43,528 nucleotides of DNA. Origin: a virus. Below the pieces are notes generated by a model. The model was not told the DNA's origin and made no database searches. It worked only from the letters and a program-made list of their open reading frames with translations. Positions 2,385-29,907 of this stretch are shown piece by piece. Each line of letters starts with the position of its first letter. The first letter of the stretch is position 1. The stretch covers positions 1 through 43,528 of IMG/VR virus record IMGVR_UViG_3300045922_000161. One strand, 5' to 3'. Both the position numbers and the translations under genes were made by a program.

Positions 2385-5300
2385 CTATCTGCGCCCGAAT
2401 AGATACTCCAACGGGGATACATCCTGCCCTTCGGCGGAGCGCCACGCGGCGTCGATCAGGCGGTTCATCTGCGTCGAGGGCAGGCCGAACGTCAGCCCCA
2501 GACCGTCCACGATGGCCTTGACCGTGGTCCGGTTGACGGTCTCGGCCTCGAGGTCGCGCAGGATCGCCGACGGGATGCGCGCCATGGTGTTCAGGATCGA
2601 CCCGTAGGCACCCCCGGACGGGAAGCCCGCGAACACGCTAACCGCGTCGCGGACGATGGGCAGTCCGCCCGCCACGGTGAATGCCGTCTCGCGGGTCAGG
2701 AAAGTGGCCCAAGCACGCGGCAGGTTCTCTTCATCGTCATCCGGCAGGCGCCCGGTGATCGCGGCGTAGAGGATCGCTTCGACCGCGAACAACATCGCCA
2801 GATCGACCGACAGCTTCAGCGCCTCGACGCCCGACCGGACCGAGAACCCTTCCTCGCGGAACACCCGCCGGGCTTTGTTGGTCCGCTCGATGGCGATGTT
2901 CATCTTGGCGAACATGTAGCTGCCCAGCGCGGTGAGCAGTCGCACCACGTCATCCTGCCGGCTCGTCCGGCTGGTGGTCCCGCGTTCGATGGCCGTCCTG
3001 TCCGAGAACTCGCCGCCGGCCTGCGCCCGGACGAGGGTGGCATCGGCCTCGGCCACGGCGTCGGTGTCGCTCATGCCCGCCGCTTTGGCCATGTCATAGG
3101 CCGCCATCCACGTCGGCATATCGATTGCGTAGAACTGGATTTTTTGCATCAGCCAGAACCCGGCGGGCGCGATGTAGCGCCTGATCACCCGGTCGTAGCG
3201 GCCCTCGAGCGGCCCTCGCAGGGTGTCGCCCACGATGTCCTGAATGTCCTTGTTGAACGTGGTCTGCCGCCGCCGCATGAACGGCGACGCTTCCATCACC
3301 GCCGCGACCGCCGCACGCGGGTTGGCCGCGTAGCGAAGCGCTGCTTTGGCGAAGTTCGCGCTGCCGACGACGACCATGGACTGCGGCAGGCCGGTCAGCT
3401 GAACGGCCACGGTGGTCAGGTTGAAGGCCAGCTTGGCTATGGTGAAGTTCGACTTCACCCGGCGGGCCATGGACCGCAGCCAATGGTCGGACGCCAACTG
3501 GCCAGCGGCCACGTCCATCACCCACAGTTCCAGCGTCTCGAGGTCCGGCAGCCGCCCGTGCTTGGCGAACAGCTCGCGGAACTGCTTGTTCTGGATGATC
3601 CGCCAGACCTCGGTCACGGCCTCGGAATAGGCCAGATCGTGCACGACCTGCGCGAGGTGCTGGTGAGCCACCTCGATGCCGATCATCAGCGGGCGCCCGC
3701 CCGACCCGTTCACCCGCTCGATCAGGTGCCCGGCTTTGGTCTGCGCCTTCGCGTAGGCCCCCGGCAGCAGGTTCTTCATCACCTCGGCGGTGTTGTCGTC
3801 CGTCACCATGGCCGACAGCTCGCCGTCATACTTGATCGGGTAGTAACCGCCCCGGTAGATGCCGAACGGGGTTTCGACGGGCAACGGCTCGACCTTGGCC
3901 GGGGCAACGCCTTTCAACCGCTTCTCACGGGCGGCAATCTCGGGCCAGTAGCTGTCGATCAAGTCCCACATGCCCTGCACGAAGTCCCAGTCCCGTTTGT
4001 CCAGAGACTTCAGTATTTCGGCCACCTGCGCCTTGGTGAAGCCTTGGCTGGCCGGGTCGGTCAGTCGTTGCAGGTTCCCCTCGTTGCCGGTGTTCAGCGC
4101 AACCGAGATGGCGTCCCACTTGGACAGCCCGCCGCGCACGAACGGGTAGTCCTTCTTGACCGCCATCTGGTTCATCTCGGCAGGCGTGTAGACCGAATAG
4201 AGGGCCTCTAGCTTCTTGGCCAAGTCCTCGCGGCGCGCGGTCGCATCACGGGTCGCGGCGTCGATCTTGGCCTTGATGTAGCGATAGGCCGGGCCGCCTA
4301 TCTCCTGCCCGTCAATCTCGCGCAGCAGCGTCGAGACGTTGATGAACAGGTTGAGATACTGCCGCCAGCCCCGCCTCCGCCGGTCCGCCGCCTGCGCCGT
4401 GCGACCGCGCGGCGTGCCCCGGATATTCCGCTCGAACCCTTCCGCAATCTCGGCCACGGCCTCGGCCAGCGTGCGCTGGCGCTGACGGTCGATCAGCTGG
4501 GCTTTTAGGCGAGCCGTATGCTCGATGTTGGTCAAGGCGTCCAACACGCCCTGCGCCTGATCGACAGTCAGCTGCCGGTAGTTCACCCGCTCGGCCCGCT
4601 CCAAGACCTCGGGCGGGATCGCCAGCTCGTTCTGCCGCCCTTGCTCGGTCATCCACGCGACGTAGCGCAGCAGCGCCGCGCGGCGATCCAGCTGGCGCCC
4701 GCTGACCTTGGTGAACTCGTAGGTCTCGAGGATCGCGTCGATGGGCTCGAGATAGTCCGGGGCGAGGTTCTTGCGGGTCGTGGCCGACTGCAACCGCTTG
4801 ACGCGGGCCTCTAGGCTTTCGACCATGGCCGCCGCCTTGCGGCTTTCGCTGTAGAGCATGAAGTTGATCAGCTGCCGCGACTTGGCCTCGAACGCCGCCT
4901 GCCGATCCCCGCGTTCCAGCGCCCGTTGCGCGTCGCTCGCAGCGCGGCGTTCGGCGGCGAGGTAGACGCTCGACCGCAACGCCTGCCGAAGCGGCAGGTT
5001 TCCGATCACGCGCTGTGCCGCCGCACGGGCCTGCTGTCGGCTCGTCGGCTTGCCTTTGACACCCTCGGCCCGGGCCAGCGCCCGCAGCTCGGCCACCAAC
5101 AACTGCCCCACCTTCTCGCCGTGCAGCGCGTCCAGCACTGTGGCGTCGGCCTCGGGCCGCAGCATCGGGTCGGGGTAGCGTTCCTGCATCACGCGCTCGG
5201 CCTCGGCGGCGGCCTCGGCGTCCAGCGTGGCACTGTTGGTCAGGGCGCGGAACAGGGCCTCGCCCGACCGGAAGCCGAACCACTGCGCAGCCTCGTCCAG

Positions 5301-8300
5301 CGGCACGGTGGGCTCGTCGGCTTTGGTCGCGTAGACCGCCTGCTTGCCGCGCGGCAGTGCGGCCACGGCAGCGGCCCCGAACCGCTCGACCAGTTCGGCC
5401 CGGTTCAGACGGGTCCTCGGCAGGTCGGGCTGATCGTCACCCAACCAGCGTCCGTTGGTGAACCACTCACGCGCGCGCTGATGCGGCTCCCGCATCAGCC
5501 GCTCGCGCTGGACCTCAATCTCCTTGGCCAGTTCGGTTTGGTAGGCCTCAGTCGCCCGCTGGCGGATCGGGGCCATGATGTCGCGCAGCAGCTCGCTCTC
5601 GGCCTCGTCTGCGGCCTGCTCCTGCAACTTCAGGAGACGGCCCCATGTCTCGGCGTCCACGCCCATCTGTTCGGCGCTGGTCGCGCTCACACGCCCCAAC
5701 CCCTCGTTCGCCTCACGGGCGTCGGCAAGCTCGCGCTCGGTCGCCAGCAGCCGGTCGAACACGCCGCGCATCTCGGGGCTGATCTTCACGTTCAGGGCCA
5801 GCGCCGTGCGGTAGAGTTGCCGCAGCCACTGTGTCACCCGGGCGAAGACGGACCGCAGCGCCAGCGTGGGCGCTTTGCCTTCCATCAGGTAGGCTTCCCA
5901 GCCTCGAGCGAACTGCTCGTGCAGCCCGACCGCGATCGCTGCGTCGGTGGCCCCGTCCCCGGTCGTGCCCTCGCGCAGGTAGCGGTGCACGTCATCGACG
6001 CTGATCGTGACACCGGGCGCCGCCGCCTTGCGCGCATCGGCGACGACACCGGCGGCGTTCTGCTTCCACCACTCCTTGACCGTCTCGAAGTCTGTGACCA
6101 CGCTGGGGTCGGCGCCTTCCATCTTGGCCAGCCGCTCGAGAATGAACAGGGCGTGGTGCCCCATCTCGTGCAGCACGGTCGAGAGGTTCTGATCGGCGAA
6201 CAGCGTGATCACGGGTGCGCTGTTGTCGGGCGGCAGGACAATCTGCCCTCGACGCCGCACCGGCCCGGTCTGGAACAGCGGCTGGGGTTTGCGGGCTTCG
6301 GCCCGCATCTCGGGCGTGATGTCGATGGCCCACACAAGCGGCAGAACGTCGGCGACCCCGGGCAAGGCGTCGAGGTTCGCCGCTAGCACGTCCAGCGGTG
6401 CCCGGGCGATTGTCCGTATGGCAGCTTCGCGCTCGCGACGCACCATCTTCTCCTCGACCTCGGCCTCGGCCTCGGCCATGAGTTCCGCGTCCGTCGCCGT
6501 GGCCAGCCGCCGATACCGCGCGATGTTCTCATTGGCCATCTGCTGATAGCCTTCCATCCGCAGCTGGACTTCGCGCCGGCGGAAGTCATCGGGCGGGTAG
6601 GGCATGTTGTTCAGCTGCGCCTGCATCGTGGCCAGCGTCTGCTCGAGCGTCGATACGGCGTCGTCCAGCTGCTTCTTGGCTTTCTCTTGGCGCGCGGCTT
6701 CGGACAGACCCGGAACAAGGCCAACCCGCTTCATTGCCGCATCGAGGGCCGCCTCGCGCGCGGCCGCGAGCTCCATGTCCAGCTGGGCGTTGCTCCCGGG
6801 GCTGATCTGCTCCATCAGTTCGCGCAGGCGCGCGGTGGGCAGGTTCGAGTTTTCCAGCGCCTTCTCGATACGCCGCTGTTGGTTGCGCGCGTCCGTAGAG
6901 TTGGCCGGCGGCGGCAGCGCGTCCACCCGCAGCTTGCCGCCATACTTCTTCGCCCACTTCTCGACGAACCGCTTCATCTGCTGGTCGTAGACGACCGTAA
7001 AGCCGGACCCGCCCAGCGTGATGTCGCTATTGCTCACCTCGCCCATGGGCTCGGCGAGAACACGCGCCGTCATCTCCCGCCCGATCACGTCGGACAGGGG
7101 GCGGGCGAACATGTTGGCGTGCGTCAGCGGGCCATCGCTGTTGGGCGCGCGCACGATCAGACCCGTCCCCGGATGAACGAACAGCTCCCCGTGCGGGTGC
7201 AGTTCCACGCGCCGCAGCCCGGCGTTCGGCCGCCCCGGCGGCACGTCGGACCAACTGATCCTATTGACGACCTCGCGCAGGCGCGTGTTCCAGCGACGGG
7301 CCTGCATCTGCGCCGGGGTCCACGCGAAGGTTTCGTAGTCGCCCCACGCCGCGAGGTTCAGCAGGCGCTTCATCATGACCTCGACCGCCGCCTGCCCCTC
7401 GAACGGCGTGAACGGCAGACGAGACCCTTTCGACGCGAGGTAGCCCGCAAACACCTCTTCCAACATCCGCGCGGCTTCGCGGTAGCTGGCAGCGGCGTCT
7501 TCGACCTGCTCGTTGGTGGCTTCGGGAGATGCGGCCAGTTTGATGAGATTGGCTTCGGCATCAGCCATTGCGTGTCTGAGGCCTTCCTTGCGGACCTCGT
7601 TGGTCAGCTCCCCCGAGAACTGAATGCGATCATAGTATGCCGCTTCCAGCGGGTGCAGCGGTATCCGCTGCGCCGCTTCCGCGCGGGTCTCGAACCCTTC
7701 CGATCCGCCCGCCTTCCGCCAATCGGAGGCAAGGTCGGACTGAACCTCCTCGACAAAGAACGTCGTGCGCCCGCCGATACGGCGGTCGGTCACGCGGGCG
7801 TGGACGACGATGTTGAGGGCCGGGGCGTCCCGGAAATGCGGGGGCGAGTAGGGCCTTGTGTATCTGTTCCGGTTGCGGCCCTCGTTGTGCAGCTCCGGGT
7901 AGTCGAGCAGATACTCGCGATAGTTCACTTTGTCCAAGCCTTCGTTCGGCTCGATGAACTCGCCGTATTCCGCCGCGAAGTCGCCGGCCCCGCTCGTGCC
8001 GTATTCTTCCAACAGGAATTGTTCCAGCGCCGCCACGGCTTCGTCGAAGGTGGAGAACTCGTCCGACAACAGCGGAACATAATAATCGCCGCCACCGCCG
8101 CTTTTGATGATCTCGAGCTCGACACGCCGCCAGCCGACCTCGACGGTCGTGGTATAGCTGACATCCGGGTCGCCGCTGAAATATTCGCTGCGCGCCAAAA
8201 TCTCGGCGTCCCTGACAACGCGCTGACGAATGCGACGAAGATCGCGCGCCAACACTTCCCACGCGGCGGAGATGTCGGCGTCGTCTTCGTCCGGGGTGGA

Positions 8301-11300
8301 CCCGTCCGTCAGAAAATTGTCTACCGCTACGCGCAAGCGGTCCCACAAGGCCTCTTGATCGGCATCGGGCACAAGCTCCGCCACGTCGTCACGAGCGTTC
8401 TCAACGAAGTCGTCCCAGTCTTCGTCGAACCACGCCTCGACAACTCTGGGCACATAGTCGTCAACCTGATCGTTGATGTATGCATCGTCCGGCTCCAGAG
8501 TTCGGGTTTCCCAAAACCGTCGCGGCGGGATGTCAACGGAGGCGACGCCGGGCTGCCCAACCAGCGTTTGCAGCTCTATCTCTTGCCCTTCCAGAAACGC
8601 CACCACCTCATCCCGGGTCACGTTCCGGTCGCCCTGTTCGGCCAACCACTCGTTCACCCCGGACCACTCGATCTCGGTGGCCTTGACGCCCGGCAGCTTG
8701 GCGATGATCGCAATCCAATCGTTCGGCCGAGCCGCCTTCTGCTTGGCCGCGCGCACCGCCGCCGTCAGGGCGCTGTAATACCACTTGCTTTCAGCGGACT
8801 GATAGAGAACCTGCGAGGTGCGGTCATCGAACACGACCTCGGGCACGGCCTCGTCGAACAGGATCGCCACGTCGCCGTGGCCGGTCCGGCCGCTGCCGTC
8901 CTCATGGACGTAGAGCCCCCGGTAGCCCGCTGCTTTGACCGCATCGACCATGGTCGCTATGCTCGGCCCGAGGTCGAGCGCGTCCGGGTTGTCGAACACG
9001 GGGTAAAGACTTTTCGGGTCCACCGCGACAATGTGGTGCCACGGGCCGAGCCCGGACTCTTTCAGATAGCCGGTGCCCGGCTCAGCACGGCCGTCCGGCA
9101 TTCTGCGCCGGGGGTTGATCCCGTAGAAGATGCCGATCGGCCCGTGCTTGTATTCAAAGCCGTGCATCCCGCCACTGCCGGGCTTCCCCTGCTTGATGAC
9201 ATCGCGCGGCGCCTGCGACCAGTGATGCAACTCGACCTTCCCGTCGATCTTGCGGATCGGCAGGTTCGGCCGGGTCGGGTCGCTGAACTCGGTCCCGGGC
9301 GGAGCAACGGGCTGGGTTGGGACGAAAGGCCGCTCCCGGAAACGATACAAGGCGTAGCCTGCCGCCCGCTCGGCATCGATCTTGTAGTCTTCAATATCCG
9401 GGACGATGCCCTCGGTCGAAACCCACTCGGGCAGCAACACAGCCTTCTGGTCGGCGTAGATCGTCTTGGACGGGTTGGCGCGGTTATGCTCGCCGTAGGG
9501 CCCGAAGTTCACCCAACTGTTCTGCCCGCGTGTCTCGGTCGTCATGGCCCGCGCTGCCAGCGGCGAGAACATGCGGACGTGAGCCTGCCACGCATTCTCC
9601 TCGCCGCGCGGGCCGAAGGCCGCCCCCTCGGACCCGTGCCCGAACACGTCGTGAACGATGCGGAAAATGTCGTTCACAACGGTCTCGCGCCCGTCGATGA
9701 CGATGCCGGTCGGAGCCAGCAACGGGTGACGACTGTCGGCCGCGTTCAAGCTGCCGAAACCGTCCTCGGTCGGGAACACCCACAGATGCTTGTTCTGTTG
9801 CAGGTCCCGGATCGCATCCGCCGGGGTCGCATAGGGGTTCTCGCCCTTGATAAACTCGAACGTGAACCCGAGCCGCTGCACGGCCCTGAACTGCGCCAGC
9901 GTCTCGCGGGCCAGCGCCTCGTAGGCTGCGCGAACCTCGGGGTTGTCGAGGTCGGACAGCGGAGCCGCCTCGTAGGCCGCCGCGATTTTCTTGGCGCGCT
10001 CCACGTCCACGGTCGCATAGACAGCCTGATGGCGCACCGGCAACCCAGCTTCCAACATGTAGCGGGTAGCCGCCAGCCGAACCCCCGGCACCGGGCCGGG
10101 ACTGGCACGCTCCAAGTCAGGCAACCGCCGTGACGGGTAGTCATTGATGCCACCAAACCTGAGACCGATCCGCTCGTGCTCGTGGGCGACCTGCAAGATC
10201 GCCCGCCGCGCAGCCTCGCTGGTGATGCGGTTCAGCGTGGCCGCGCGAACTTCGGGCGTCTCGCCCGGCAGCAAGGGCGGCTCAAAATCCTGCCCCAGCA
10301 CGTTCGGCGTCGGTCCCTCACCGTCCGGGGACGCCGGGGGCAACGGCAGGTCCGGCTCGCTCGCAGTGAGCGTCCGCCCCATAGCCGCCGCACCCGGGGC
10401 GGCCGCCCGGGTTGACGCCTCGCGATCAACACCCAGCGAACGCGCCACCCGCAACACCGTCCGGTCGGACGCGATAGTGGGGTCGATACCCCGTGCCACC
10501 AGCGCCGCCCGGACGGCCACGGCCGCAGGCGCGGTGCTGTTCTCGCGAACGGCGCGAGCCAAATCGCCGTAGGTCATCGGCGCGTCGGGATCGGTTCCGG
10601 CCAACCGGACCTCGGCTACGGGGAACTGCTCGAGAAACGCCTCGGGGTCCGGCGCCCGCGCCGCGTTCGTTGCATAGAGGGCCGCGTAGATCGAAGCATA
10701 CTGGCGGGCCACATCGGGCGCCTGACCGGCATCGACGAACCGCTGATAGGCGACCTCATACACTTCGTTGCGGATCGCCTCGGGCGCGTCAACGTCGAGC
10801 TGGTTGTTGGCAATCTGCTCCGCCACGCGCCGCAGTTCCGCTTCCATGCGGGCGCTGCTTTGAACGCGCTCGAAAGGCGTCATGTGCAGCGGATCGAGCC
10901 GGACGTGCGGACGCAGCAAAGTCTCGAACTCGGTGCCCACCACGTCGGTCAGCCAAACCGACATCGGGATCGACACGTCGTGCCCGTCCTGAATAGCCGC
11001 GTCGAAAGTGGTCCGGTCCACCCCCATCGCCGCCAACACGGTGTTCAACGCCGCGCTGTCCTCGACACGCTGGGCGAGCAATTGGGCACCTTCGGCAGAG
11101 ATGCGAACGGTCTCGACAGAGGTGCCCTCGGTGGCCGCCGCCGCCCACTCGCGGAACCTGTTCGGCGCGGTGTCGCGCAATTCGGTCTTCCGCGCGACCT
11201 CGGACAGCCGGTCGAACATCGCCTCGGTGGCAGCGCTGGCCTCACGCTGTTCGACCTCGCGCAGCACCCAAGCACGGGCGCCCGGAGATAGGGACAACAG

Positions 11301-12683
11301 GATGCCCCGCAGCGTGGCCGCCGCCGAGCCGGACAAGACACCCTGCATGAAGGTGTCGTCGAACGCGCCACGCTCGGGGTTGTAGTTCTGCTCGATCAGG
11401 TTTTGCAGGATGGCGCCAACCGTCTCGACCGCCGCCTCGCCGCCGGCGGTGATGGCAAGGTCGCCCGCGATGGCCGACCAGCGACGACGCGCCATGGGCG
11501 CCGCACGCCGCAACAGGTATTCGATGGACAGCGCCTGAATGAACCCCGCCGGCCCGCCTTGCAGGACGTAACGAGCCGCGCTTTCATGATCCATGCCCGC
11601 CGCACGGGCCCGCTGATAGGCTTCGTCCATGCCCGCGCCGGTCGCGGCGACAGCCGTGCCGACAAACCCGCTAGCAGCGCCGACGGCAACGAACGCCGCC
11701 AGAGACCCCAGCCCCGCGCCGAGCTCAGAAGCAATGGAGCCCTCGGTCCCCGGAACGGGCGCGAGAGTTTCCTGCAACCGGCTGGCGATCCAGTTGCCGA
11801 TGATGAACAGGTAGCGATCCTGCACCGGCGTGACGAGGCGGGCACGCAGGCTGGCCAGTTCCTCGGGCGGTGCGCCGCGTTCCAGCGCATCGGCGTATGC
11901 CTCGAGGTTGGCGATGGTGGCCTCGGTATTGGGCGTCTGCAAAAGCATGGCCCGATACCACGCCGCCCGTTGACGAGCGCCCGCCGCGACCCGCGCCCGA
12001 ACCTCGGGGTCCGTCATGTCCTCGCCGCGACCCCACGCCTCGAGCCCCGGGTCGGTGCCAGCCAACATGCCCGCCAGCCGGTCCTGCCCCAGCGCCAGCC
12101 CGCGCAACGACGAACCAATGGTGGCAGGAACCGCGCGCACCGCCGAGCGCGAAAGCTGCACGAGCGGGTTGCGCTGGACGATGTTCGGCTGCCGGAACAG
12201 CCGCTCCATCTCGGCCAGATAGGCCGCATCACGGCGGGCGTAAGCGGCGTTCTCCTCGTAGGCCAACCAGCGAGCCGTGGCCGGCGCGTTCAGCAACGCG
12301 CCCGTGAGACGAGCCGCCTCGGCCTCGGCCTCGTAGGTCGCCCGCTCAGCCGCCAACACCGAGGCAGGAACGCGCCGCCCCGCCTGCTCAAGACTGTCGC
12401 CGAGACGGGCCACGTCGGGCGGCACGGCAGGCGTGGTCGCCACGACACCTGCAGCCTGCCGCGCAGCCCGAGTGCGACCCTGCTCGGCCAGCGACACGAT
12501 GTTCTGCCGCAGATGGACCTCAGGGTCGAAACCCGCGTCGAGGTCAGGCATCGCGGTGAGACGAACGGGCAACGCCGTGGAGCCCAACAGCGCCCGCGTC
12601 GTCTGCCCGACGGGATCGGCGGGCTCACTCAGGGTCGCGCGGAAGTGCGCAACTGGATCGAAGACACCGTTAGCGGTAGACAT
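2385..12683 (-). CDS. Giant polyvalent virion/ejection protein (3432 aa)
   Basis: This single 10.3-kb frame is about 24% of the genome. Following the ejection protein gene, it is probably packaged and ejected with the DNA. Visible pieces in order are: an Ala/Gly hydrophobic stretch near 325-345; HDVFGHG at 1011-1017 followed by GEENAWQAH, a metal-site-like block; a possible ADP-ribosyltransferase-like region at about 1145-1290; a segment at about 1300-1372 (GVKATEIEWSGVNEWL) known from phage polyvalent proteins; EEVQSD at 1645-1650 and GGSGFTVVYD at 1891-1900, which recur together in such proteins; a zincin-type HEMGHH at 2172-2177; long charged helices at about 2250-2700; and a C-terminal domain resembling LPD38 with membrane-like helices from about 3070 to the end. 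Domain names rest on motif memory and no search was run. The start overlaps the upstream gene by 14 bases. Confidence 0.85.
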   Translation of the reverse strand: MSTANGVFDPVAHFRATLSEPADPVGQTTRALLGSTALPVRLTAMPDLDAGFDPEVHLRQNIVSLAEQGRTRAARQAAGVVATTPAVPPDVARLGDSLEQAGRRVPASVLAAERATYEAEAEAARLTGALLNAPATARWLAYEENAAYARRDAAYLAEMERLFRQPNIVQRNPLVQLSRSAVRAVPATIGSSLRGLALGQDRLAGMLAGTDPGLEAWGRGEDMTDPEVRARVAAGARQRAAWYRAMLLQTPNTEATIANLEAYADALERGAPPEELASLRARLVTPVQDRYLFIIGNWIASRLQETLAPVPGTEGSIASELGAGLGSLAAFVAVGAASGFVGTAVAATGAGMDEAYQRARAAGMDHESAARYVLQGGPAGFIQALSIEYLLRRAAPMARRRWSAIAGDLAITAGGEAAVETVGAILQNLIEQNYNPERGAFDDTFMQGVLSGSAAATLRGILLSLSPGARAWVLREVEQREASAATEAMFDRLSEVARKTELRDTAPNRFREWAAAATEGTSVETVRISAEGAQLLAQRVEDSAALNTVLAAMGVDRTTFDAAIQDGHDVSIPMSVWLTDVVGTEFETLLRPHVRLDPLHMTPFERVQSSARMEAELRRVAEQIANNQLDVDAPEAIRNEVYEVAYQRFVDAGQAPDVARQYASIYAALYATNAARAPDPEAFLEQFPVAEVRLAGTDPDAPMTYGDLARAVRENSTAPAAVAVRAALVARGIDPTIASDRTVLRVARSLGVDREASTRAAAPGAAAMGRTLTASEPDLPLPPASPDGEGPTPNVLGQDFEPPLLPGETPEVRAATLNRITSEAARRAILQVAHEHERIGLRFGGINDYPSRRLPDLERASPGPVPGVRLAATRYMLEAGLPVRHQAVYATVDVERAKKIAAAYEAAPLSDLDNPEVRAAYEALARETLAQFRAVQRLGFTFEFIKGENPYATPADAIRDLQQNKHLWVFPTEDGFGSLNAADSRHPLLAPTGIVIDGRETVVNDIFRIVHDVFGHGSEGAAFGPRGEENAWQAHVRMFSPLAARAMTTETRGQNSWVNFGPYGEHNRANPSKTIYADQKAVLLPEWVSTEGIVPDIEDYKIDAERAAGYALYRFRERPFVPTQPVAPPGTEFSDPTRPNLPIRKIDGKVELHHWSQAPRDVIKQGKPGSGGMHGFEYKHGPIGIFYGINPRRRMPDGRAEPGTGYLKESGLGPWHHIVAVDPKSLYPVFDNPDALDLGPSIATMVDAVKAAGYRGLYVHEDGSGRTGHGDVAILFDEAVPEVVFDDRTSQVLYQSAESKWYYSALTAAVRAAKQKAARPNDWIAIIAKLPGVKATEIEWSGVNEWLAEQGDRNVTRDEVVAFLEGQEIELQTLVGQPGVASVDIPPRRFWETRTLEPDDAYINDQVDDYVPRVVEAWFDEDWDDFVENARDDVAELVPDADQEALWDRLRVAVDNFLTDGSTPDEDDADISAAWEVLARDLRRIRQRVVRDAEILARSEYFSGDPDVSYTTTVEVGWRRVELEIIKSGGGGDYYVPLLSDEFSTFDEAVAALEQFLLEEYGTSGAGDFAAEYGEFIEPNEGLDKVNYREYLLDYPELHNEGRNRNRYTRPYSPPHFRDAPALNIVVHARVTDRRIGGRTTFFVEEVQSDLASDWRKAGGSEGFETRAEAAQRIPLHPLEAAYYDRIQFSGELTNEVRKEGLRHAMADAEANLIKLAASPEATNEQVEDAAASYREAARMLEEVFAGYLASKGSRLPFTPFEGQAAVEVMMKRLLNLAAWGDYETFAWTPAQMQARRWNTRLREVVNRISWSDVPPGRPNAGLRRVELHPHGELFVHPGTGLIVRAPNSDGPLTHANMFARPLSDVIGREMTARVLAEPMGEVSNSDITLGGSGFTVVYDQQMKRFVEKWAKKYGGKLRVDALPPPANSTDARNQQRRIEKALENSNLPTARLRELMEQISPGSNAQLDMELAAAREAALDAAMKRVGLVPGLSEAARQEKAKKQLDDAVSTLEQTLATMQAQLNNMPYPPDDFRRREVQLRMEGYQQMANENIARYRRLATATDAELMAEAEAEVEEKMVRREREAAIRTIARAPLDVLAANLDALPGVADVLPLVWAIDITPEMRAEARKPQPLFQTGPVRRRGQIVLPPDNSAPVITLFADQNLSTVLHEMGHHALFILERLAKMEGADPSVVTDFETVKEWWKQNAAGVVADARKAAAPGVTISVDDVHRYLREGTTGDGATDAAIAVGLHEQFARGWEAYLMEGKAPTLALRSVFARVTQWLRQLYRTALALNVKISPEMRGVFDRLLATERELADAREANEGLGRVSATSAEQMGVDAETWGRLLKLQEQAADEAESELLRDIMAPIRQRATEAYQTELAKEIEVQRERLMREPHQRAREWFTNGRWLGDDQPDLPRTRLNRAELVERFGAAAVAALPRGKQAVYATKADEPTVPLDEAAQWFGFRSGEALFRALTNSATLDAEAAAEAERVMQERYPDPMLRPEADATVLDALHGEKVGQLLVAELRALARAEGVKGKPTSRQQARAAAQRVIGNLPLRQALRSSVYLAAERRAASDAQRALERGDRQAAFEAKSRQLINFMLYSESRKAAAMVESLEARVKRLQSATTRKNLAPDYLEPIDAILETYEFTKVSGRQLDRRAALLRYVAWMTEQGRQNELAIPPEVLERAERVNYRQLTVDQAQGVLDALTNIEHTARLKAQLIDRQRQRTLAEAVAEIAEGFERNIRGTPRGRTAQAADRRRRGWRQYLNLFINVSTLLREIDGQEIGGPAYRYIKAKIDAATRDATARREDLAKKLEALYSVYTPAEMNQMAVKKDYPFVRGGLSKWDAISVALNTGNEGNLQRLTDPASQGFTKAQVAEILKSLDKRDWDFVQGMWDLIDSYWPEIAAREKRLKGVAPAKVEPLPVETPFGIYRGGYYPIKYDGELSAMVTDDNTAEVMKNLLPGAYAKAQTKAGHLIERVNGSGGRPLMIGIEVAHQHLAQVVHDLAYSEAVTEVWRIIQNKQFRELFAKHGRLPDLETLELWVMDVAAGQLASDHWLRSMARRVKSNFTIAKLAFNLTTVAVQLTGLPQSMVVVGSANFAKAALRYAANPRAAVAAVMEASPFMRRRQTTFNKDIQDIVGDTLRGPLEGRYDRVIRRYIAPAGFWLMQKIQFYAIDMPTWMAAYDMAKAAGMSDTDAVAEADATLVRAQAGGEFSDRTAIERGTTSRTSRQDDVVRLLTALGSYMFAKMNIAIERTNKARRVFREEGFSVRSGVEALKLSVDLAMLFAVEAILYAAITGRLPDDDEENLPRAWATFLTRETAFTVAGGLPIVRDAVSVFAGFPSGGAYGSILNTMARIPSAILRDLEAETVNRTTVKAIVDGLGLTFGLPSTQMNRLIDAAWRSAEGQDVSPLEYLFGRR

Positions 12684-15600
12684 GCGGCTGGCGCTCCCGC
12701 AGAACCATGTCAGGCGTGATACCAGCCTGCTGCATTATGTGCAATATTTGCGCACGCCGGGTCTCGGCATAGGCATGTAGCAGCTCACTCTCGCTCATGC
12801 GGATCGGCCGGCCGTCCGGCCCTTCAACGTCGTATTGGGGCTCCCCCGCCATACCGAAACCACTCAGCACCCACTCGCCCCAACCGGGCACAACGCGCCC
12901 GGCGCGTATCGACGCCGGCACATCCTCGATACGGACTTCGGGCGTGCGCCCCTCGGCCACGGCGATCATGTCGTTCCACAGTCGCGCGGTCTGCTCTTCC
13001 CGCTCGGCCTGCGTCATGCCGGCGAACTGCGACCCGATGGCCTGCCGGATGCTGTCGGGGATGTCGTTGTAGGCTACGGGCACCGTCCGAGGCGTGGCAC
13101 CGGGCGCCACCCGGTTCTCCACGTCAAACCGAGGAACCAGCGTCGGCCCCCATATCAGACCTGCCGGCTCAATCTCGACCGGGGTCAGCATGTCCGCGAC
13201 AATCGCCCGCAGCTCCAGCCGGTTCGGTGCGGACCCCGTGGCACGGATCACGTCAACCACGCGGGCCTCCAACGCCCTGCGGAACCGCTCGACCATGGCG
13301 CGGTCCTCAGCCCGCATCTGCGTCGGATCGTCGGTCACGTTGATGCCGGTCATCATCTGGAACGTCGAGGACGCATCGCGCCACAGCTGCACCGGGTCCA
13401 CACCGTCCAACGCCGCGCGCATAGCTGCGTGCCGAGCCTCGGGCGTCCGCGCGCCACGCAGCTCGGTCTGCAACGCCGCCAGCCGCCGATAGTCCTCGGC
13501 GTTCAACCGCCCAGCCCCGAGGTGGTATTGCAGGTCGGTCGCAAGGAAGGCTTCGGGGTCGGAGACGGCCTGATCCACCAGCGCCCCGTAGAGCACGGGA
13601 TCGGTCAGGTTGACGCCCTGCTGGAACACGCGGCCGGCCGACGTGAGCGCCGCCGTCAGCTCGTGCCCAAGCCCGATGGCAAGCTCCGGCGGGATCGTCC
13701 AGTCGCCCGTGGACACGCCCCGCTGATAGGCCTGATCGAACAGCGCCCGCCGGGTCTCGCCTTGAATGGCGTCGTAGGCCCGCCGTTGCAGCTCCAATTC
13801 CTGCAACATCGCCTGCCGCAGTTGCAGGTCCGGCTCGGCCAAAGCAGCTTCCAGCCCCGCCGCGAAGTTCGGGCGAGGCATCATGTCGGGCAACTGCGGA
13901 GCCAGTGCAGTCCCATACTCCGCAGACACCGCCGCGCGGTATTGGCCAACTGTTATGGTCGGGGACGCATTGGGCAGAAGTTGGCTGAGCGGCGTGCCGG
14001 GATCGGCCTGCAAGATGGCCAGCCCCAACTCGCGGCCGTGCACCTGCATGATGAACTGGTTCGCAGCGGTCACGCCTAGCCCGGCCGCCGCCAGCGCCGC
14101 ATTGTTGGCCTCGGCCACGGCCAACCACGCCGCGCTGGCATTGGGGTCCTGTTCGCCATGGCGGCGCAGGTAGGTCAACAGGCGCGTGCCGTAGGTGTCG
14201 GACGGGTTATACGCACCCCCGCTTTCCAGAAACCGCCGCAGCCCCTCGTTGCCACCAAGATGCGCGACCGCGCGCATCCCGGAATGCGTGACCGTGACCC
14301 CGTTGATCTGCGTCCCGATGAACCGGAACAGCCCGTTGCGCTCGATGAACTGGTCGATGTCTTGGAAATGCCAGCGTTCGACCGCCCGTTGCAGGTCGGG
14401 GCCGGCGAGAAACTGCTCGGGCGTGGTTCCCGGCGGCAGCACCCCAGCGGCGATAGCTTCGTTCAGTCGAGCGCGGCTGAACTGCAACCGCCCGAAGTGC
14501 CCGATACCGCCCGCACCGGGGACGTTGTTGCGCGCATACCAGTTACCCCCGCTTTCCGAAAGGATGAGGCTTTCGGTGCCCGGCACCTCCGCAACCTGCC
14601 CGCTGGGCACATCCGTGCGGCGCGGACCGGGGCTGGCGCCGGGCGGAGCGTTGGGCGGGCCGGCGAACGGCACAGACGCGGAAGGCGGCATGGCCACCAC
14701 AAAGTCCGGCAGGATGCCCCGGTTCCCCGCCTCGATGGCCGCACGCTGCCCCTGCGTCTCGCCGCCGTAATACCAGAACGGGTCGCGGTCAGTGTGAAGG
14801 TCGAGATGCAGATGACCCCGCGCGACACCGACGCCGCCGATACGACGCGCGCGCCAATACTGGATCAGCGGGGCGAGCTCGTCACCCGACAGCCGCCGAC
14901 CGTTCAGGATGACGGCCACGTCAGCGGCCAACCCGTGGTCATGCCGAGTGGAACCAGACCGAACGCCGCCCGGTGTCTCGGCGGCGGTCTGCCCGCCGCT
15001 GAACACCGACACGATGGCGCCCGGCCCGTAGACCGCCGTGGCCGCCTCGGACAACCGCGCGGCTAGCGTGGCGTCGATCTCCAACCGACGGGCCGTGGTC
15101 GGCGAAATGTCCATACGGACACCCGCCATCGTGGGCGACGGCGGAATGACGAACGCCCCGCTCCGGGCGACCATCATGGTCGTGCCGGGCACCCGCTGGC
15201 CGGTCGTGTAGGTCTCGCGCGGGGCGACTGCGTTACGGAACGCCGGGTTCGCCGCCAACCCAGCAGCTACGCCCGCCGCCAACTGCGGGCCGTAGGCACG
15301 GCCCATGGTATAGTTCGTCGAGGCCGGGGTGCTGATGGCCTCGCGAACCCGGTCCGCCGCAATCTGCGCCCGGACCATCGGGGCCAGCGCGTTCTCGACA
15401 CGGGCTTGGTCTTCGCCCGACATGCGCTCGCGGTTCTCGTTGAAGAACGCCTGCGCGCGCAGCACGCCATTGGGGGCTTCGACCATGCGCGAGATGATCT
15501 GCCGCAAGGTCTGCGAAACCGCCGCCCGCTGCGACGCTGCGATGGCTTCGGGCGAGGAGCCGTTCAGCATCCCCAGACGGGCAATCTCATTCAGCGCCTG

Positions 15601-16152
15601 CGTCAGCGCCGCCTCACGGGCCTCGGGGTTGTCGTAGGCAACCAGCGCCTCGTTCAGAAAGTTCTGCGCGCTGGCCTCGAAGGTGGCGTTGGTGTAGCGC
15701 CGCAGCTCACTTCCATCGTGCCGGATGAACTGCTCGCGCACACTTTGGGTGATGCTGTCAGTCGCCCGGTCGAACACCTGTTGAGCGGCGGGCGACAGGT
15801 TGGCACGGCGCGCCTCCCGCGCCGCGTCCACCGCCTGCTCGGCCGCCAGCCGGGCCTCGCCAATTGCGTTGGCGCCGGTCTGCATGAGGTAGCCGGTCTG
15901 CGGGTCGAACCGCAATTGCCGCAGGTCTTCGATGTAGGCGTTCTGCGCCTCGCGGGCCTCGTTCTCGGCGCGCAGCATCTGAACAGCTTGGAGGTCGCGG
16001 GCCAGCCCGCTGATCGCGCTGCCCAGCCCAATCAGCGCGTTTGCCCGCGCTATCGTGCCCGAGTTGTCGATCAGAATGGGCCGATAGCGAACATCCATGT
16101 CCTGCTGCCGTGCGGGACGGCTTCGGACCTGCTGCTGATACTGCTCGACCAT
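12670..16152 (-). CDS. Internal virion (ejection) protein with M15-like peptidase and lysozyme-like domains
   Basis: This 1160-residue protein combines two cell-wall activities. Residues 1-330 are mostly helical and Ala-rich. Residues about 370-455 look like a VanY/M15 metallopeptidase: S-T-R-H404-D-H-G-L-A-A-D411 and G-H447-L-H449-L-D give the expected zinc ligands for cutting peptidoglycan cross-links. Residues about 525-690 look like a transglycosylase/lysozyme: ESGGNW with the probable catalytic Glu533, then a GIGHFGRLQFSRARL segment. The remaining roughly 470 residues are helical without a recognised motif. In podoviruses such internal proteins open the wall so the tail channel can be extended into the cell. 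The start ATG 16152 lies 20 bases after the preceding gene, and the end overlaps the giant gene. The role is well supported; the peptidase assignment is slightly less so. Confidence 0.85.
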   Translation of the reverse strand: MVEQYQQQVRSRPARQQDMDVRYRPILIDNSGTIARANALIGLGSAISGLARDLQAVQMLRAENEAREAQNAYIEDLRQLRFDPQTGYLMQTGANAIGEARLAAEQAVDAAREARRANLSPAAQQVFDRATDSITQSVREQFIRHDGSELRRYTNATFEASAQNFLNEALVAYDNPEAREAALTQALNEIARLGMLNGSSPEAIAASQRAAVSQTLRQIISRMVEAPNGVLRAQAFFNENRERMSGEDQARVENALAPMVRAQIAADRVREAISTPASTNYTMGRAYGPQLAAGVAAGLAANPAFRNAVAPRETYTTGQRVPGTTMMVARSGAFVIPPSPTMAGVRMDISPTTARRLEIDATLAARLSEAATAVYGPGAIVSVFSGGQTAAETPGGVRSGSTRHDHGLAADVAVILNGRRLSGDELAPLIQYWRARRIGGVGVARGHLHLDLHTDRDPFWYYGGETQGQRAAIEAGNRGILPDFVVAMPPSASVPFAGPPNAPPGASPGPRRTDVPSGQVAEVPGTESLILSESGGNWYARNNVPGAGGIGHFGRLQFSRARLNEAIAAGVLPPGTTPEQFLAGPDLQRAVERWHFQDIDQFIERNGLFRFIGTQINGVTVTHSGMRAVAHLGGNEGLRRFLESGGAYNPSDTYGTRLLTYLRRHGEQDPNASAAWLAVAEANNAALAAAGLGVTAANQFIMQVHGRELGLAILQADPGTPLSQLLPNASPTITVGQYRAAVSAEYGTALAPQLPDMMPRPNFAAGLEAALAEPDLQLRQAMLQELELQRRAYDAIQGETRRALFDQAYQRGVSTGDWTIPPELAIGLGHELTAALTSAGRVFQQGVNLTDPVLYGALVDQAVSDPEAFLATDLQYHLGAGRLNAEDYRRLAALQTELRGARTPEARHAAMRAALDGVDPVQLWRDASSTFQMMTGINVTDDPTQMRAEDRAMVERFRRALEARVVDVIRATGSAPNRLELRAIVADMLTPVEIEPAGLIWGPTLVPRFDVENRVAPGATPRTVPVAYNDIPDSIRQAIGSQFAGMTQAEREEQTARLWNDMIAVAEGRTPEVRIEDVPASIRAGRVVPGWGEWVLSGFGMAGEPQYDVEGPDGRPIRMSESELLHAYAETRRAQILHIMQQAGITPDMVLRERQPHVYR

Positions 16153-25305: not shown

Positions 25306-27789
25306 CTATCCCTCCAACGGGTTGAACGTGTAGTCTAGGATCACGGGCTTTGCTCGGTCCGCACCATAGCCCCTCGACGCCGGCAGCGCAACAGGCGCGG
25401 CAAAGGTCAGCGCCAAAGCATCGCCTCGGTTTGGCGACGGCACGCCGCGCCTGCGCATGTCCTCCTTGCTTTCCAGCGCCACCAACCCGTCCAGACGAGC
25501 CAACGTCTGCGGGCCGATCAGGTCCTGCCGCAGCACGGGGTCATCGGGAATGGCGCCGCCCATCTCCAACCAGTCACGGGTCAGCTTCCAAATCTCGGCG
25601 CGCTTGTTCAGGTAGCCGGGAATACTGGACTTGCCCGCAAACCAGACCAGCTGCCACGACCGGCCCATCGCGTCGCCCGCACTCTTGATCCCAGTCCCAT
25701 AGCCCGCGTCTATGAACACGGCCTGCGCGTTGTAGCGCTGCTCGTAGTAGGCCAAGCGCTGGGCAATGAACACGTCCGCCGCGTGACCGGAGCCGTGATC
25801 ACGAAAGGCATCGAGAATGCGGAACATCAAGCCCTGCCGCATTCCGATCACCAGCTCGTCGTCGCCGGTCCACGCAGGGTCGCAGGACAGGATCACCGGG
25901 GCGAACTCGTATTGCTCGGGCCGCAGATGGCGCCCAGCGGCTGCGTCCACGAGGTCTTCTGGGATGAACTGCCGGTTCGAGGCGCGCGGAAACAGACCCC
26001 GAACCCGAACCCGCACGAAGTCGCTGTCTTCGCCGTAGGTCTGCACCCACTTCTCAAGCTCGGCGGTGTTCACGCCCTCGACCGTGCGGCTGTCGATCTG
26101 CCGCGTGCGCCACTGATGCCGGAACCGGCGCCAGAACTCGCGAAACCGGCCCTCGTTCCGCGTCGGGTTGCCGAACACGACCTGCAACAGGATCGTGTCC
26201 TTGTCCGTCATCGCACCCTCGATCACGTCGAACACGTTGTCGGCGATGGCCGAGCCCTCGTCCACCAGCACGGCCAGCAGGCTGCCCTTGTTGTGAAGCC
26301 CTTGGAACGCCTCGGTGTTGTGTTCGGACCAGCTCACGAAGTCGAGCCGCCAGTTGTCCCGACATGACGGATCGTTCACTGCAATCCGCATCGTGTCTAC
26401 ATCGAGCAACGGCGCCGTGATCGACAGCCGCGCCCACTTGGCGAACTCGGGACTGGTCTTGGTCCGAAGTTGGCTTTCGGTGTTCGCCGTCACCAGAACA
26501 CGCGCCCGGCGGTGGCAGGACAAGGCCCAGTTTCCGATGATCGACATCGCCGCGCTGTTGTGCGTCGGGACGTAGCCCTCGGTCAGGTAGAGGCCGGACG
26601 GATCGCTGACCGTCACGCAGCGCACATCGGTCGGCTTGGCAACCCGAACACCGACGATACGACGCGACAGGTCCTGCGGTTCTGGGTAGGACAGCGAGTC
26701 CTGCCGACGATCCGTGAAGCTGGCGACACGCGGCGGCATGGTGATCGACAGCCGCCCGCCGGGCGTCAGTGTGACGCGCCCGCAGAGACCGTGAACGAGG
26801 TCACGCACGGACGCGACCAGCCCCGGATCGGTGAGCCGGAACACGGCCCGCCCTTTGACCGGCCCCGCAGCGGCGTCCAGAAGACCCAGAAGCAGCCTGT
26901 GCCGCCAGCTAGGGGGTTGGGTAGCCCAAGCACGGGGGATGCCTTGGCGGCGCTTCTCTGGGGCTAGCAGGTCGTATTTCCGCAGGGTGGCAAGCAGGCC
27001 CGGCACATGAAGCTGCCACCGATCGCCGTCCGTCTCGCGCGCTTCGACCCGCTCGCCCGGGACGTGCAGGGCCAGCGCTTCGGCCTGCGCCGCCGTCAGC
27101 CCGCCGATGCGGCCAGTGCCGGTGATGCCCGCCGCCAGCCACCAGCCCAGAACGTAGGGCGAGATGGCAGGCTCCTCGTGGGCGCGAACGTAGCCCAGCG
27201 GCCGCGTCACGGGCGGCAGCAGGAAGCGCGGCGCCCGAACCCCAGCTACGCTCGCGCTGGCCCGCGCGAACTCCTGCGCCAGCTCGCGGGTCGTCAGGGT
27301 CTGCCATGGAGCTTCGCCCCGGCGGCGCTCGGGCTGAACGGTCCACAGATGATCGGGATCGCAGCGCACAACGGTGCCGTCCTCGATCAACACCTCGACG
27401 GTGTGACGATGCATCACGGGGTGGACATGCGTGATCGTCACCGGCCCGGCCACGCCGAACAGCCGGTCGCCCACTTGCAAGTCGCCCCATCGGCGCAAGC
27501 CGTCGGGCGTGTCGAGGATCATGTCGAGCGGCTGCGCCTTGCCGATCCCGTGGCCCGAGGCGATGGCGAGGCGGAACGGTGTGTGTCGCGTGGTTGGATC
27601 GACCAGATGATCGCGGATCATCGCCAGCGTCTCGGCCTGCCACGTCCGCAGGGCTTCGCGCTCTAGCACGGTGCCGGGCTGGCCCCACGGAAACGCAATC
27701 TGCGCCCAGCGCAAAGGATCGTAGCGGCAGGCGGCGGCCAGCGCGGCGATGCGCGCGGCTTGGTCAGAAGACAGAGGCTTTGAAGGCAT
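25306..27789 (-). CDS. terL: Terminase large subunit, interrupted by an intein
   Basis: The 827-residue precursor contains a terminase of about 500 residues: an ATPase that drives DNA into the capsid and a nuclease that cuts it. The P-loop is split: ASGHGIGK84 comes before the intein and Ser412 directly after it, so splicing would restore GHGIGKS. Walker B is LLAVLVDEGS with Asp510-Glu511. The nuclease domain shows ILSCD637PAW, VFIDAGYG and NRGDALAL, giving the usual acidic metal ligands. Because the intein splits the nucleotide-binding loop, the unspliced protein should not bind ATP. The gene starts three bases after terS and is followed closely by the Pro-rich gene. Confidence 0.93.
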   Translation of the reverse strand: MPSKPLSSDQAARIAALAAACRYDPLRWAQIAFPWGQPGTVLEREALRTWQAETLAMIRDHLVDPTTRHTPFRLAIASGHGIGKAQPLDMILDTPDGLRRWGDLQVGDRLFGVAGPVTITHVHPVMHRHTVEVLIEDGTVVRCDPDHLWTVQPERRRGEAPWQTLTTRELAQEFARASASVAGVRAPRFLLPPVTRPLGYVRAHEEPAISPYVLGWWLAAGITGTGRIGGLTAAQAEALALHVPGERVEARETDGDRWQLHVPGLLATLRKYDLLAPEKRRQGIPRAWATQPPSWRHRLLLGLLDAAAGPVKGRAVFRLTDPGLVASVRDLVHGLCGRVTLTPGGRLSITMPPRVASFTDRRQDSLSYPEPQDLSRRIVGVRVAKPTDVRCVTVSDPSGLYLTEGYVPTHNSAAMSIIGNWALSCHRRARVLVTANTESQLRTKTSPEFAKWARLSITAPLLDVDTMRIAVNDPSCRDNWRLDFVSWSEHNTEAFQGLHNKGSLLAVLVDEGSAIADNVFDVIEGAMTDKDTILLQVVFGNPTRNEGRFREFWRRFRHQWRTRQIDSRTVEGVNTAELEKWVQTYGEDSDFVRVRVRGLFPRASNRQFIPEDLVDAAAGRHLRPEQYEFAPVILSCDPAWTGDDELVIGMRQGLMFRILDAFRDHGSGHAADVFIAQRLAYYEQRYNAQAVFIDAGYGTGIKSAGDAMGRSWQLVWFAGKSSIPGYLNKRAEIWKLTRDWLEMGGAIPDDPVLRQDLIGPQTLARLDGLVALESKEDMRRRGVPSPNRGDALALTFAAPVALPASRGYGADRAKPVILDYTFNPLEG
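26557..27537 (-). other. Class 3-type intein in terL, with degenerate LAGLIDADG remnant
   Basis: The intein covers precursor residues 85-411 (327 residues). It begins with Ala instead of Cys or Ser and ends VPTHN before Ser412. Block B reads DPDHLWTV (Trp149) and block F DVRCVTV (Cys391), with Thr409 in PTHN. This Trp-Cys-Thr set together with Ala1 defines class 3 inteins, in which the internal Cys starts splicing. The central part keeps two LAGLIDADG-like helices, but the catalytic acids appear lost: LGWWLAAG where LGxxLGDG is usual, and LLLGLLDAAAG where a second DG is usual. Splicing is therefore expected to work and homing is not. Boundaries were checked codon by codon. Confidence 0.9.
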
Positions 27790-27792
27790 GGC

Positions 27793-28317
27793 TCAGCCTT
27801 GGAGCGCAGCTTCCGCAGCACGCAGCAGGGCCTCGAAACCGGTGTGCTGCACGTTCAGCTTGTCGTTGTAGAACCCGTGGTGACGGGCCAGCCGATCGAG
27901 CGCGGTGTCCTTGTCGCACAACTCGAGGACGAAGTTCCCCTGCTTGTCGTAGCGCCAGCCCTTGACCAGCAGGCGACGCAGATGCTCGGGCACCCGCTCG
28001 CGCAGCTCGGCGAGGCTGTTGACGCCCTCGAACACGGCCGGGTCAAACGTGCCCTGCCCCTCGAAGATGGCGCGCAGGTCGTTGACGGTCAGCGTGGCGC
28101 TGGGCGAGGCGCTGGGCGAGACCGGGTCTGGGGCGACGGCACGCGCAGCCATCTCGGCCTGCAACTGGGCCACCCGCGCCCGCACGTCCGGGTCTCGACA
28201 GAGAACCCGCCACGTCGGGTGCCGGATGCCAGCCTCGACCACGGCCTCGCGCCAGTCGCGGCCGGAGGCCACTAGGCGGGCCAGCTCTTCATAGGCGGGA
28301 GGCAGGGAAGCAGCCAT
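27793..28317 (-). CDS. terS: Terminase small subunit
   Basis: This 174-residue protein recognises phage DNA for packaging. The N-terminal half has a helix-turn-helix-like stretch (YEELARLVASGRDWREAVVEAGIRHPTWRVLCRDPDVRARV). The C-terminal part has VKGWRYDKQGNFVLELCDKDTALDRLARHHGFY, split across a motif that is common in small terminases just before the oligomerisation end. It lies directly before terL. ATG 28317 was chosen although no strong ribosome-binding site precedes it; the longer frame to 28455 would cross the divergent gene. It is the first gene of the minus-strand late block. Confidence 0.85.
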   Translation of the reverse strand: MAASLPPAYEELARLVASGRDWREAVVEAGIRHPTWRVLCRDPDVRARVAQLQAEMAARAVAPDPVSPSASPSATLTVNDLRAIFEGQGTFDPAVFEGVNSLAELRERVPEHLRRLLVKGWRYDKQGNFVLELCDKDTALDRLARHHGFYNDKLNVQHTGFEALLRAAEAALQG

Positions 28318-28342
28318 GACGGGCAAGATAGCCTGCGCGCCC

Positions 28343-28381
28343 AGCTCGCGCAATAGGCGCAAAGCTCGCGCAAGATAGGCG
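28343..28381. repeat. Direct repeat pair in the terS / orphan gene divergent gap
   Basis: AGCTCGCGCAATAGGCG (28343-28359) and AGCTCGCGCAAGATAGGCG (28363-28381) lie 20 bases apart, two helical turns, between terS and the plus-strand gene at 28444. They could be tandem binding sites for a regulator of late transcription. A TTGACA follows at 28382-28387 on the plus strand but has no good -10 at normal spacing, so a promoter there is unproven. Confidence 0.5.
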
Positions 28382-28443
28382 TTGACACGGCGCCCTCTCC
28401 GGCGCACGGTGCTGGGACTGAAACCCACCTGATGGAGACCACA

Positions 28444-28821
28444 ATGCAGAACCACGAGACGAAGGCGTCAGACACGCCGGTCGCCGGCGGCGATCGCAGC
28501 CTCAGGCTGAACGGGCGCGAGACGGTCGTCGCGATCCTGCCCGCCTATGTGACGGACCTGCACACGCGGGCGAAGGTGCTGCGCCTGCTCGACACGGCCC
28601 GCGCTACGCTGGCGCTGGCGCACCCCAAGGCCCTGCGTCTGGGACGGGTCTGGCACGAGGGCCGCAGCGTGTCGTGCATCGTCCTTGCACGGGCCGATCT
28701 GCACGGGGTGATCGAGCGGGCGGGCTACCTCGACGAGGACGCGGTGATACTGCCGCTGGACAGCCTGATGCCGGGTGACGTGCTGGTCGAGGCTGGGTTG
28801 CCGCTCGACGCAACCGACTGA
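28444..28821 (+). CDS. Orphan plus-strand protein 1, unknown function
   Basis: This 125-residue protein is not recognised. It starts at ATG 28444, with GGAG six bases upstream; an in-frame ATG at 28432 overlaps that site and is less likely. Segments such as RETVVAILPAYVTDLHTRAKVLRLLDTARATLALAHP and SVSCIVLARADLHGVIERAGYLDEDAVILPL suggest a small alpha/beta protein. It is transcribed opposite to the late and primase blocks and is followed at once by a strong terminator, so it is a single-gene unit. Such placement fits an accessory or early host-interaction gene, but that is inference only. Confidence 0.7.
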   Translation: MQNHETKASDTPVAGGDRSLRLNGRETVVAILPAYVTDLHTRAKVLRLLDTARATLALAHPKALRLGRVWHEGRSVSCIVLARADLHGVIERAGYLDEDAVILPLDSLMPGDVLVEAGLPLDATD

Positions 28822-29463: not shown

Positions 29464-29466
29464 GTG

Positions 29467-29907
29467 ATGCAGAACTTGTCCTCCAACTTCGTCGTTCTGA
29501 CCGCCACCCAAGCCGTGCTCGGGCCGTGCGACAGCCCGGCGAACCGGGCCGCCCATCGGCATCTCGTGGCCAAGTTGGCCGGCTTCGTGCAGGCGGTTGC
29601 CGGCGCGCGTGTTGAATGCGTGAGCGGCTTCTACCGGGGTGTCGCCGACGGCGTGTCCTACCTGATCGACCTGTCCGATGTCGCCCCCGCCGCCCGTGAC
29701 TGGGCCGTGCGGGCGCTTCGCGAGCTGGCGGGCGAGTATGGGCAGGAAAGCATCCTGACGCAGGACGGCCTGTTCACGCCCGAGGGTGTGCAGCTGGCCG
29801 TGGTCGCAGGCCCGGCCATCGTCGGCGACGAGGCCCGTGCGCAGGACTTCTACAGTGTCCGGCAGGACGGCACCGCGTTCAGCCTCCCGTTGGCCTTCCT
29901 GAACTAG
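29467..29907 (+). CDS. Orphan plus-strand protein 2, unknown function (likely early)
   Basis: This 146-residue protein is not recognised. Notable segments are CVSGFYRGVADGVSYLIDL and ALRELAGEYGQESILTQDGLF, split by a short loop; the pattern suggests an alpha/beta fold with a GQES turn. There are no membrane segments. ATG 29467 was taken over GTG 29464 because it is the normal codon, with AGGGG upstream. The gene has its own strong promoter and a hairpin after its stop, and faces the primase gene. A gene driven alone by a consensus host promoter is typical of early takeover, anti-restriction or anti-defence proteins, but nothing in the sequence proves such a role. Confidence 0.75.
   Translation: MQNLSSNFVVLTATQAVLGPCDSPANRAAHRHLVAKLAGFVQAVAGARVECVSGFYRGVADGVSYLIDLSDVAPAARDWAVRALRELAGEYGQESILTQDGLFTPEGVQLAVVAGPAIVGDEARAQDFYSVRQDGTAFSLPLAFLN

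Follow-up and report, generated by a model that had tools for sequence, protein, structure and literature searches.

A predicted class 3 intein with a degenerate LAGLIDADG endonuclease in the P-loop of a phage large terminase

The window analysed here, the whole 43,528-base stretch of virus record IMGVR_UViG_3300045922_000161, derives from a podovirus-like phage, with portal, protease, capsid, tail and internal virion protein families encoded on the minus strand and with replication genes for a primase, a DNA polymerase and a helicase. Its large terminase (TerL) gene is preceded by that of the small subunit, whose product shows 42% identity in 168 aligned columns with the TerS annotated in Nostoc phage Nsp-JY18, and contains a long in-frame insert with the parts listed in Table 1. 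Elsewhere in the window, an open frame of 3,432 residues (2385-12683, minus strand) matches the uncharacterised phage family phrog_9880 (E 9e-276), best over the C-terminal third of the frame, and adjoins a 1,160-residue frame with endolysin-like parts (12670-16152). On the plus strand, a 147-residue frame (29464-29907) shows a weak, below cut-off Pfam match (E 5e-4) to the S-adenosylmethionine lyase family, a kind of early phage gene that counters restriction.

Table 1. Features of the terminase locus; residue numbers are those of the intein unless the precursor is named.
Feature	Position	Strand	Remarks
Small terminase subunit	27793..28455	-	directly upstream of TerL; 42% identical to TerS of Nostoc phage Nsp-JY18
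Large terminase (TerL) precursor	25306..27789	-	827 aa, epsilon15/Uetakevirus type, intein in frame; PHROG terminase large subunit
N-extein, precursor residues 1-84, ends ...ASGHGIGK (first part of P-loop)	27538..27789	-	collinear with intein-free homologues
Predicted class 3 intein, 327 aa, AQPLDM...VPTHN	26557..27537	-	residues 85-411 of precursor
Block B His63-Leu-Trp65	27343..27351	-	Trp65 first of WCT triplet, precursor Trp149; His, Trp invariant in 50 others
Decayed LAGLIDADG endonuclease region, residues 76-291	26665..27312	-	limits approximate
Ala136 (GCG), first motif LGWWLAAG	27130..27132	-	PI-SceI counterpart Asp218
Ala223 (GCT), second motif GLLDAAAG	26869..26871	-	PI-SceI counterpart Asp326
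Block F Cys307, predicted initiating nucleophile	26617..26619	-	precursor Cys391; invariant in 50 others
Block G Thr325-His326-Asn327	26557..26565	-	precursor Thr409-His410-Asn411
C-extein: +1 nucleophile Ser412, rest of P-loop, rest of ATPase, nuclease domain, stop codon	25306..26556	-	

The precursor is one open frame, in which 327 residues separate Lys84 from Ser412 of the terminase motif GHGIGKS. The inserted residues are missing from the intein-free terminases of Nsp-JY18 and epsilon15, and removing them joins the flanks as ...IASGHGIGK + SAAMS..., collinear with IASGHGIGK+SAAMG in Nsp-JY18 and with the epsilon15 terminase. Compared with the uninterrupted Nsp-JY18 terminase, the C-extein shows 64% identity; against the terminases of epsilon15-like phages the figure is about 50%. 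The open frame of the insert is not due to chance, since only 0.18% of base-shuffled versions stay open and its codons are used as in the other genes of the phage. We thus find what defines an intein, a conserved host protein interrupted in frame relative to collinear, uninterrupted homologues, and find it exactly at the junction where an earlier, sequence-only reading had placed it. The uninterrupted relatives which that reading proposed to look for comprise these two phages and at least 120 Ser/Thr alleles of the junction: all 120 among the matches listed are intein-free, and none holds a class 1 intein, with a search pattern able to catch inteins beginning with Cys or Ser as well.

Judged by its sequence, the insert is a class 3 intein that splits the P-loop exactly. 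Members of this class lack Cys or Ser at position 1 and carry a Trp-Cys-Thr (WCT) triplet in blocks B, F and G, as defined in two earlier studies (PMC5050341, PMC7664689). Here, position 1 is Ala (Ala85 of the precursor, codon GCG), and Trp65, within the block B sequence DPDHLW (Asp60, His63, Trp65), Cys307 and Thr325 occupy the three blocks, in agreement with the residues and coordinates proposed from the sequence alone, all of which are correct. The same columns are common to the 50 other class 3 inteins that we compared, 38 of which occupy the same terminase site and 12 other sites or other phage proteins: none of the 50 departs from His, Trp, Cys, His or Asn in the respective columns, and the block G Thr is conserved in 49 and replaced by Ser in one. 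Blocks A, B, F and G and a terminal Asn followed by Ser are present as well, in a modelled HINT fold. We considered a class 1 intein as well and ruled it out, given that the insert begins with Ala, not Cys or Ser, and has the full WCT set. In established class 3 chemistry the block F Cys starts splicing (PMC7664689, PMC6195587), and by analogy Cys307 would do so here.

In line with this, phmmer matched the intein to the PDB sequences of the class 3 DnaB inteins of M. chimaera and M. smegmatis. An AlphaFold2 model, for which the input alignment of relatives already carried the fold, reached a pLDDT of 91.6 and a pTM of 0.90; its splicing domain superposes on MsmDnaBi1 (6bs8) with a Z-score of 18.8 and an rmsd of 1.4 Å over 122 residues at 37% identity, and the whole intein superposes on PI-SceI with a Z-score of 24.5 over 309 residues, as a double LAGLIDADG domain nested in the HINT domain. 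MsmDnaBi1 and MchDnaB1 (6rix), on which the model superposes at 1.4-1.8 Å, share with it Ala1, the block B HxW, the block F Cys, the block G Thr-His-Asn, Ser+1 and a P-loop host site, but are mini-inteins without an endonuclease domain and reside in a replicative helicase, whereas the window intein carries an endonuclease region and resides in a terminase. It is also the most divergent intein of its set (branch length 2.3, best identity 33%), so that its splicing efficiency is not assured, and this divergence accounts for the lack of any Pfam match above cut-off and for a score of 12 bits, below the cut-off of 15.6, with the NCBIfam C-terminal intein model.

By sequence, the insertion is more ordinary than it looks at first, because class 3 inteins are found at the same site in dozens of phages, most of them with intact endonuclease motifs. 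We scanned viral contigs for ASGHGIGK with an Ala or Gly codon directly after it and for SGHG(I/V)GK with Ala in that place, reading each frame, and collected, from these contigs and from genomes, at least 50 inteins (39 distinct) at the same junction between Lys and Ser or Thr, including the one in the window; without it there are at least 49 copies, 38 of them distinct and all of class 3, counts that represent samples and not frequencies. Carriers include Salmonella phages, among them PAT1, and contigs of Citrobacter, Pseudescherichia and Samsonia; in the genome collection, the P-loop pattern returned 19 stretches, three of them real inteins (one each from Pseudescherichia, Citrobacter and Samsonia) and the rest mostly chance matches. 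The record of Salmonella virus PAT1 (L002, MT261384) names a plain terminase of 816 residues, with no intein annotated, although the protein contains a 322-residue class 3 intein; 65FD and 66FD have matches to that same stretch. Searching the viral contigs with the window intein's own peptides found no close relative.

In the tree, 33 of the 38 distinct same-site inteins form one supported group, with L302 and a group made up of L309, L310, L072 and L136 outside it. Class 3 inteins have probably entered the site more than once, to judge from this tree, and a single origin for all same-site inteins is not rejected (AU p 0.14). The unconstrained tree places the window intein outside the main same-site clade (97/99), although its branch there is very long; a tree that keeps it within the clade is worse by only 0.09 log units (AU p 0.39).

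At least 86 further epsilon15-like terminases (L033-L151, e.g., L033, L034 and L036) have Gly after the P-loop Lys (ASGHGIGKG), a residue that is unusual at this place in a Walker A motif. None of them contains an intein, as expected, because Gly cannot be a +1 nucleophile.

Within the endonuclease half, a profile of the relatives' corresponding halves matched both acid positions to PI-SceI Asp218 and Asp326, which we take to be its catalytic Asp residues; this match needed the profile, and a direct search of the PDB with the endonuclease half of one relative (L122) gave no match. Both positions are Ala in the window intein (Ala136 and Ala223), in place of the catalytic acids of an active LAGLIDADG enzyme, and the loss already noted for the two motifs from the sequence alone is thereby placed on defined residues. 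Among the 50 other class 3 inteins, the first position is Asp in 46, Asn in three and Lys in one, the second is Asp in 48, Ala in one and Asn in one, and only L309 lacks both acids. An additional set of class 3 loci is biased towards intact endonucleases, since one of its search patterns demanded ...DG. Similarly, Pfam searches of 32 aligned inteins detect LAGLIDADG_3 in 28 and Hom_end in 28, and neither in the window intein. On one fixed, quickly built topology with a long window branch, its tip branch measures 2.24 for the endonuclease and 0.94 for the splicing domain, an excess larger than in any other of the 42 inteins listed, and inteins with motif lesions show a larger endonuclease excess as a group (Mann-Whitney p 0.006; 0.02 without the window). 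The frame of this half is open, its codon usage is phage-like and its fold is kept in the model, from which we infer a folded but catalytically dead scaffold. With both catalytic acids lost, self-driven homing has very probably been lost too, as the sequence-only reading had claimed.

Other inteins at this site show different degrees of decay. One LAGLIDADG motif is altered in L295, L294 and L302; in the first of these (L295:2675-3655), the first motif is intact, the second is disrupted (LCDSAVVS) and the endonuclease half is fast-evolving. The intein of L309 (509-1243) is cut to 245 residues, with Lys and Asn at the two acid positions, and by its sequence has gone further in decay than the window intein has.

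We therefore favour, with high confidence, a class 3 intein that interrupts the terminase P-loop between Lys and Ser, has a LAGLIDADG endonuclease deprived of its catalytic acids and is kept by vertical descent, at the degeneration stage of the homing cycle. In the proposed mechanism, Cys307, aided by His63 and Thr325, would attack the Lys84-Ala85 bond and take the N-extein as a thioester, Ser412 (+1) would then take over the N-extein, Asn327 would cyclise and release the intein, and an acyl shift would leave an intact GHGIGKS loop. Before splicing, the P-loop Lys and Ser would be 327 residues apart, ATP binding should fail and the ATPase of the precursor would presumably be inactive; a precedent for such a precursor block is RadA, cited in PMC6195587. 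The intein can probably still splice and no longer spread, passing on by vertical descent while splicing would be selected through the need for the terminase. Retention on the grounds that only a precise loss would be tolerated, an imprecise one being lethal, would fit the accepted homing-cycle model (PMC8966425).

Among the alternatives, the one with an appreciable, if minor, chance of being right is that the dead endonuclease half is not en route to deletion and is instead kept since splicing needs it, a Hint-endonuclease mutualism as known for TliVMA and MvuTFIIB (PMC8966425). The scaffold is indeed full-length and folded in the model despite the loss of both acids, and its codons are used as elsewhere in the gene. 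On the other hand, it evolves much faster than the splicing half, the L309 intein at the same site has lost both acids and is down to 245 residues, and the likewise dead Pyrococcus horikoshii VMA intein (PhoVMA) splices without its endonuclease domain (PMC8966425).

Much less probable is that splicing is a regulated switch, a timer or redox sensor that holds back the packaging motor until infection is late or conditions become reducing. This part of the sequence-only reading is not supported; its class 3 assignment, the split P-loop and the acid loss are. Dividing the ATP-binding loop does make splicing a gate of activity by logic, and in the class 3 intein Msm DnaBi1 H2O2 causes a reversible inhibition that acts through Cys118-Cys48 (PMC6195587). 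However, we see no sign of regulation in the sequence: Cys48, the redox partner in DnaBi1, aligns with Thr46 of the window intein, and of the non-catalytic cysteines left, Cys59 and Cys252, neither is conserved. Cys59 adjoins the block B Asp60, where a less direct redox route is conceivable, but is Val or Ala in 39 of the 50 relatives. In addition, the closest terminases have no intein, and five phage TerL inteins spliced quickly in a reporter (PMC5050341). The related proposal that the dead scaffold is kept or adapted for a host function, with splicing making the assembly of the packaging motor dependent on conditions, seems marginally more doubtful still. A splicing-defective insert in a dead terminase gene, belonging to a defective phage or prophage remnant, would suit the unusual divergence of the intein but is very improbable, given that every splicing residue is present, that the frame is intact with phage-like codon usage, and that the C-extein and the portal, capsid, tail and replication genes all have open frames. 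Least likely of all is an endonuclease still active, and an intein still homing, through other acids, as the retained Asp221 of the second motif aligns with PI-SceI Asp324 and not with Asp326, and the first motif has no acid at all.

The favoured reading, a class 3 intein with a dead endonuclease, combines traits known from several systems. The TerL intein of PAT1 shares with it the terminase family, the Lys-Ser site and the WCT residues, but has intact acids (GVWLGDG, LLDTDG) and is 29% identical to it. The mycobacteriophage TerL1-a intein likewise follows the P-loop Lys of a phage large terminase, but precedes Thr and belongs to a different terminase family; in the same study TerL1-c and TerL1-e, not TerL1-a, grouped with the class 3 DnaB-b inteins, and both spliced quickly (PMC5050341, portion available). 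PhoVMA (7qst) also has a LAGLIDADG domain without catalytic Asp and with the scaffold kept, and is called inactive (PMC8966425), but is an archaeal intein with Cys1 in a V-ATPase and not of class 3, while the window intein is a class 3 phage intein. Thus, inteins between the P-loop Lys and Thr and class 3 inteins in phage terminases have been described separately (PMC5050341), as have inteins with inactivated LAGLIDADG domains (PMC8966425). For class 3 inteins in epsilon15-like terminases we found no description in the literature searched, and the same-site decay series across these terminases may be undescribed.

Taken alone, the window intein is an ordinary late-stage intein, and its value is comparative. 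At one codon junction of one terminase family, there are inteins with both acids intact, with one motif altered, with both acids lost at full length, as in the window, and with both lost and the intein shortened, as in L309. Such a decay series at a single site could be used to ask at what stage and for what reason phages lose homing endonucleases.
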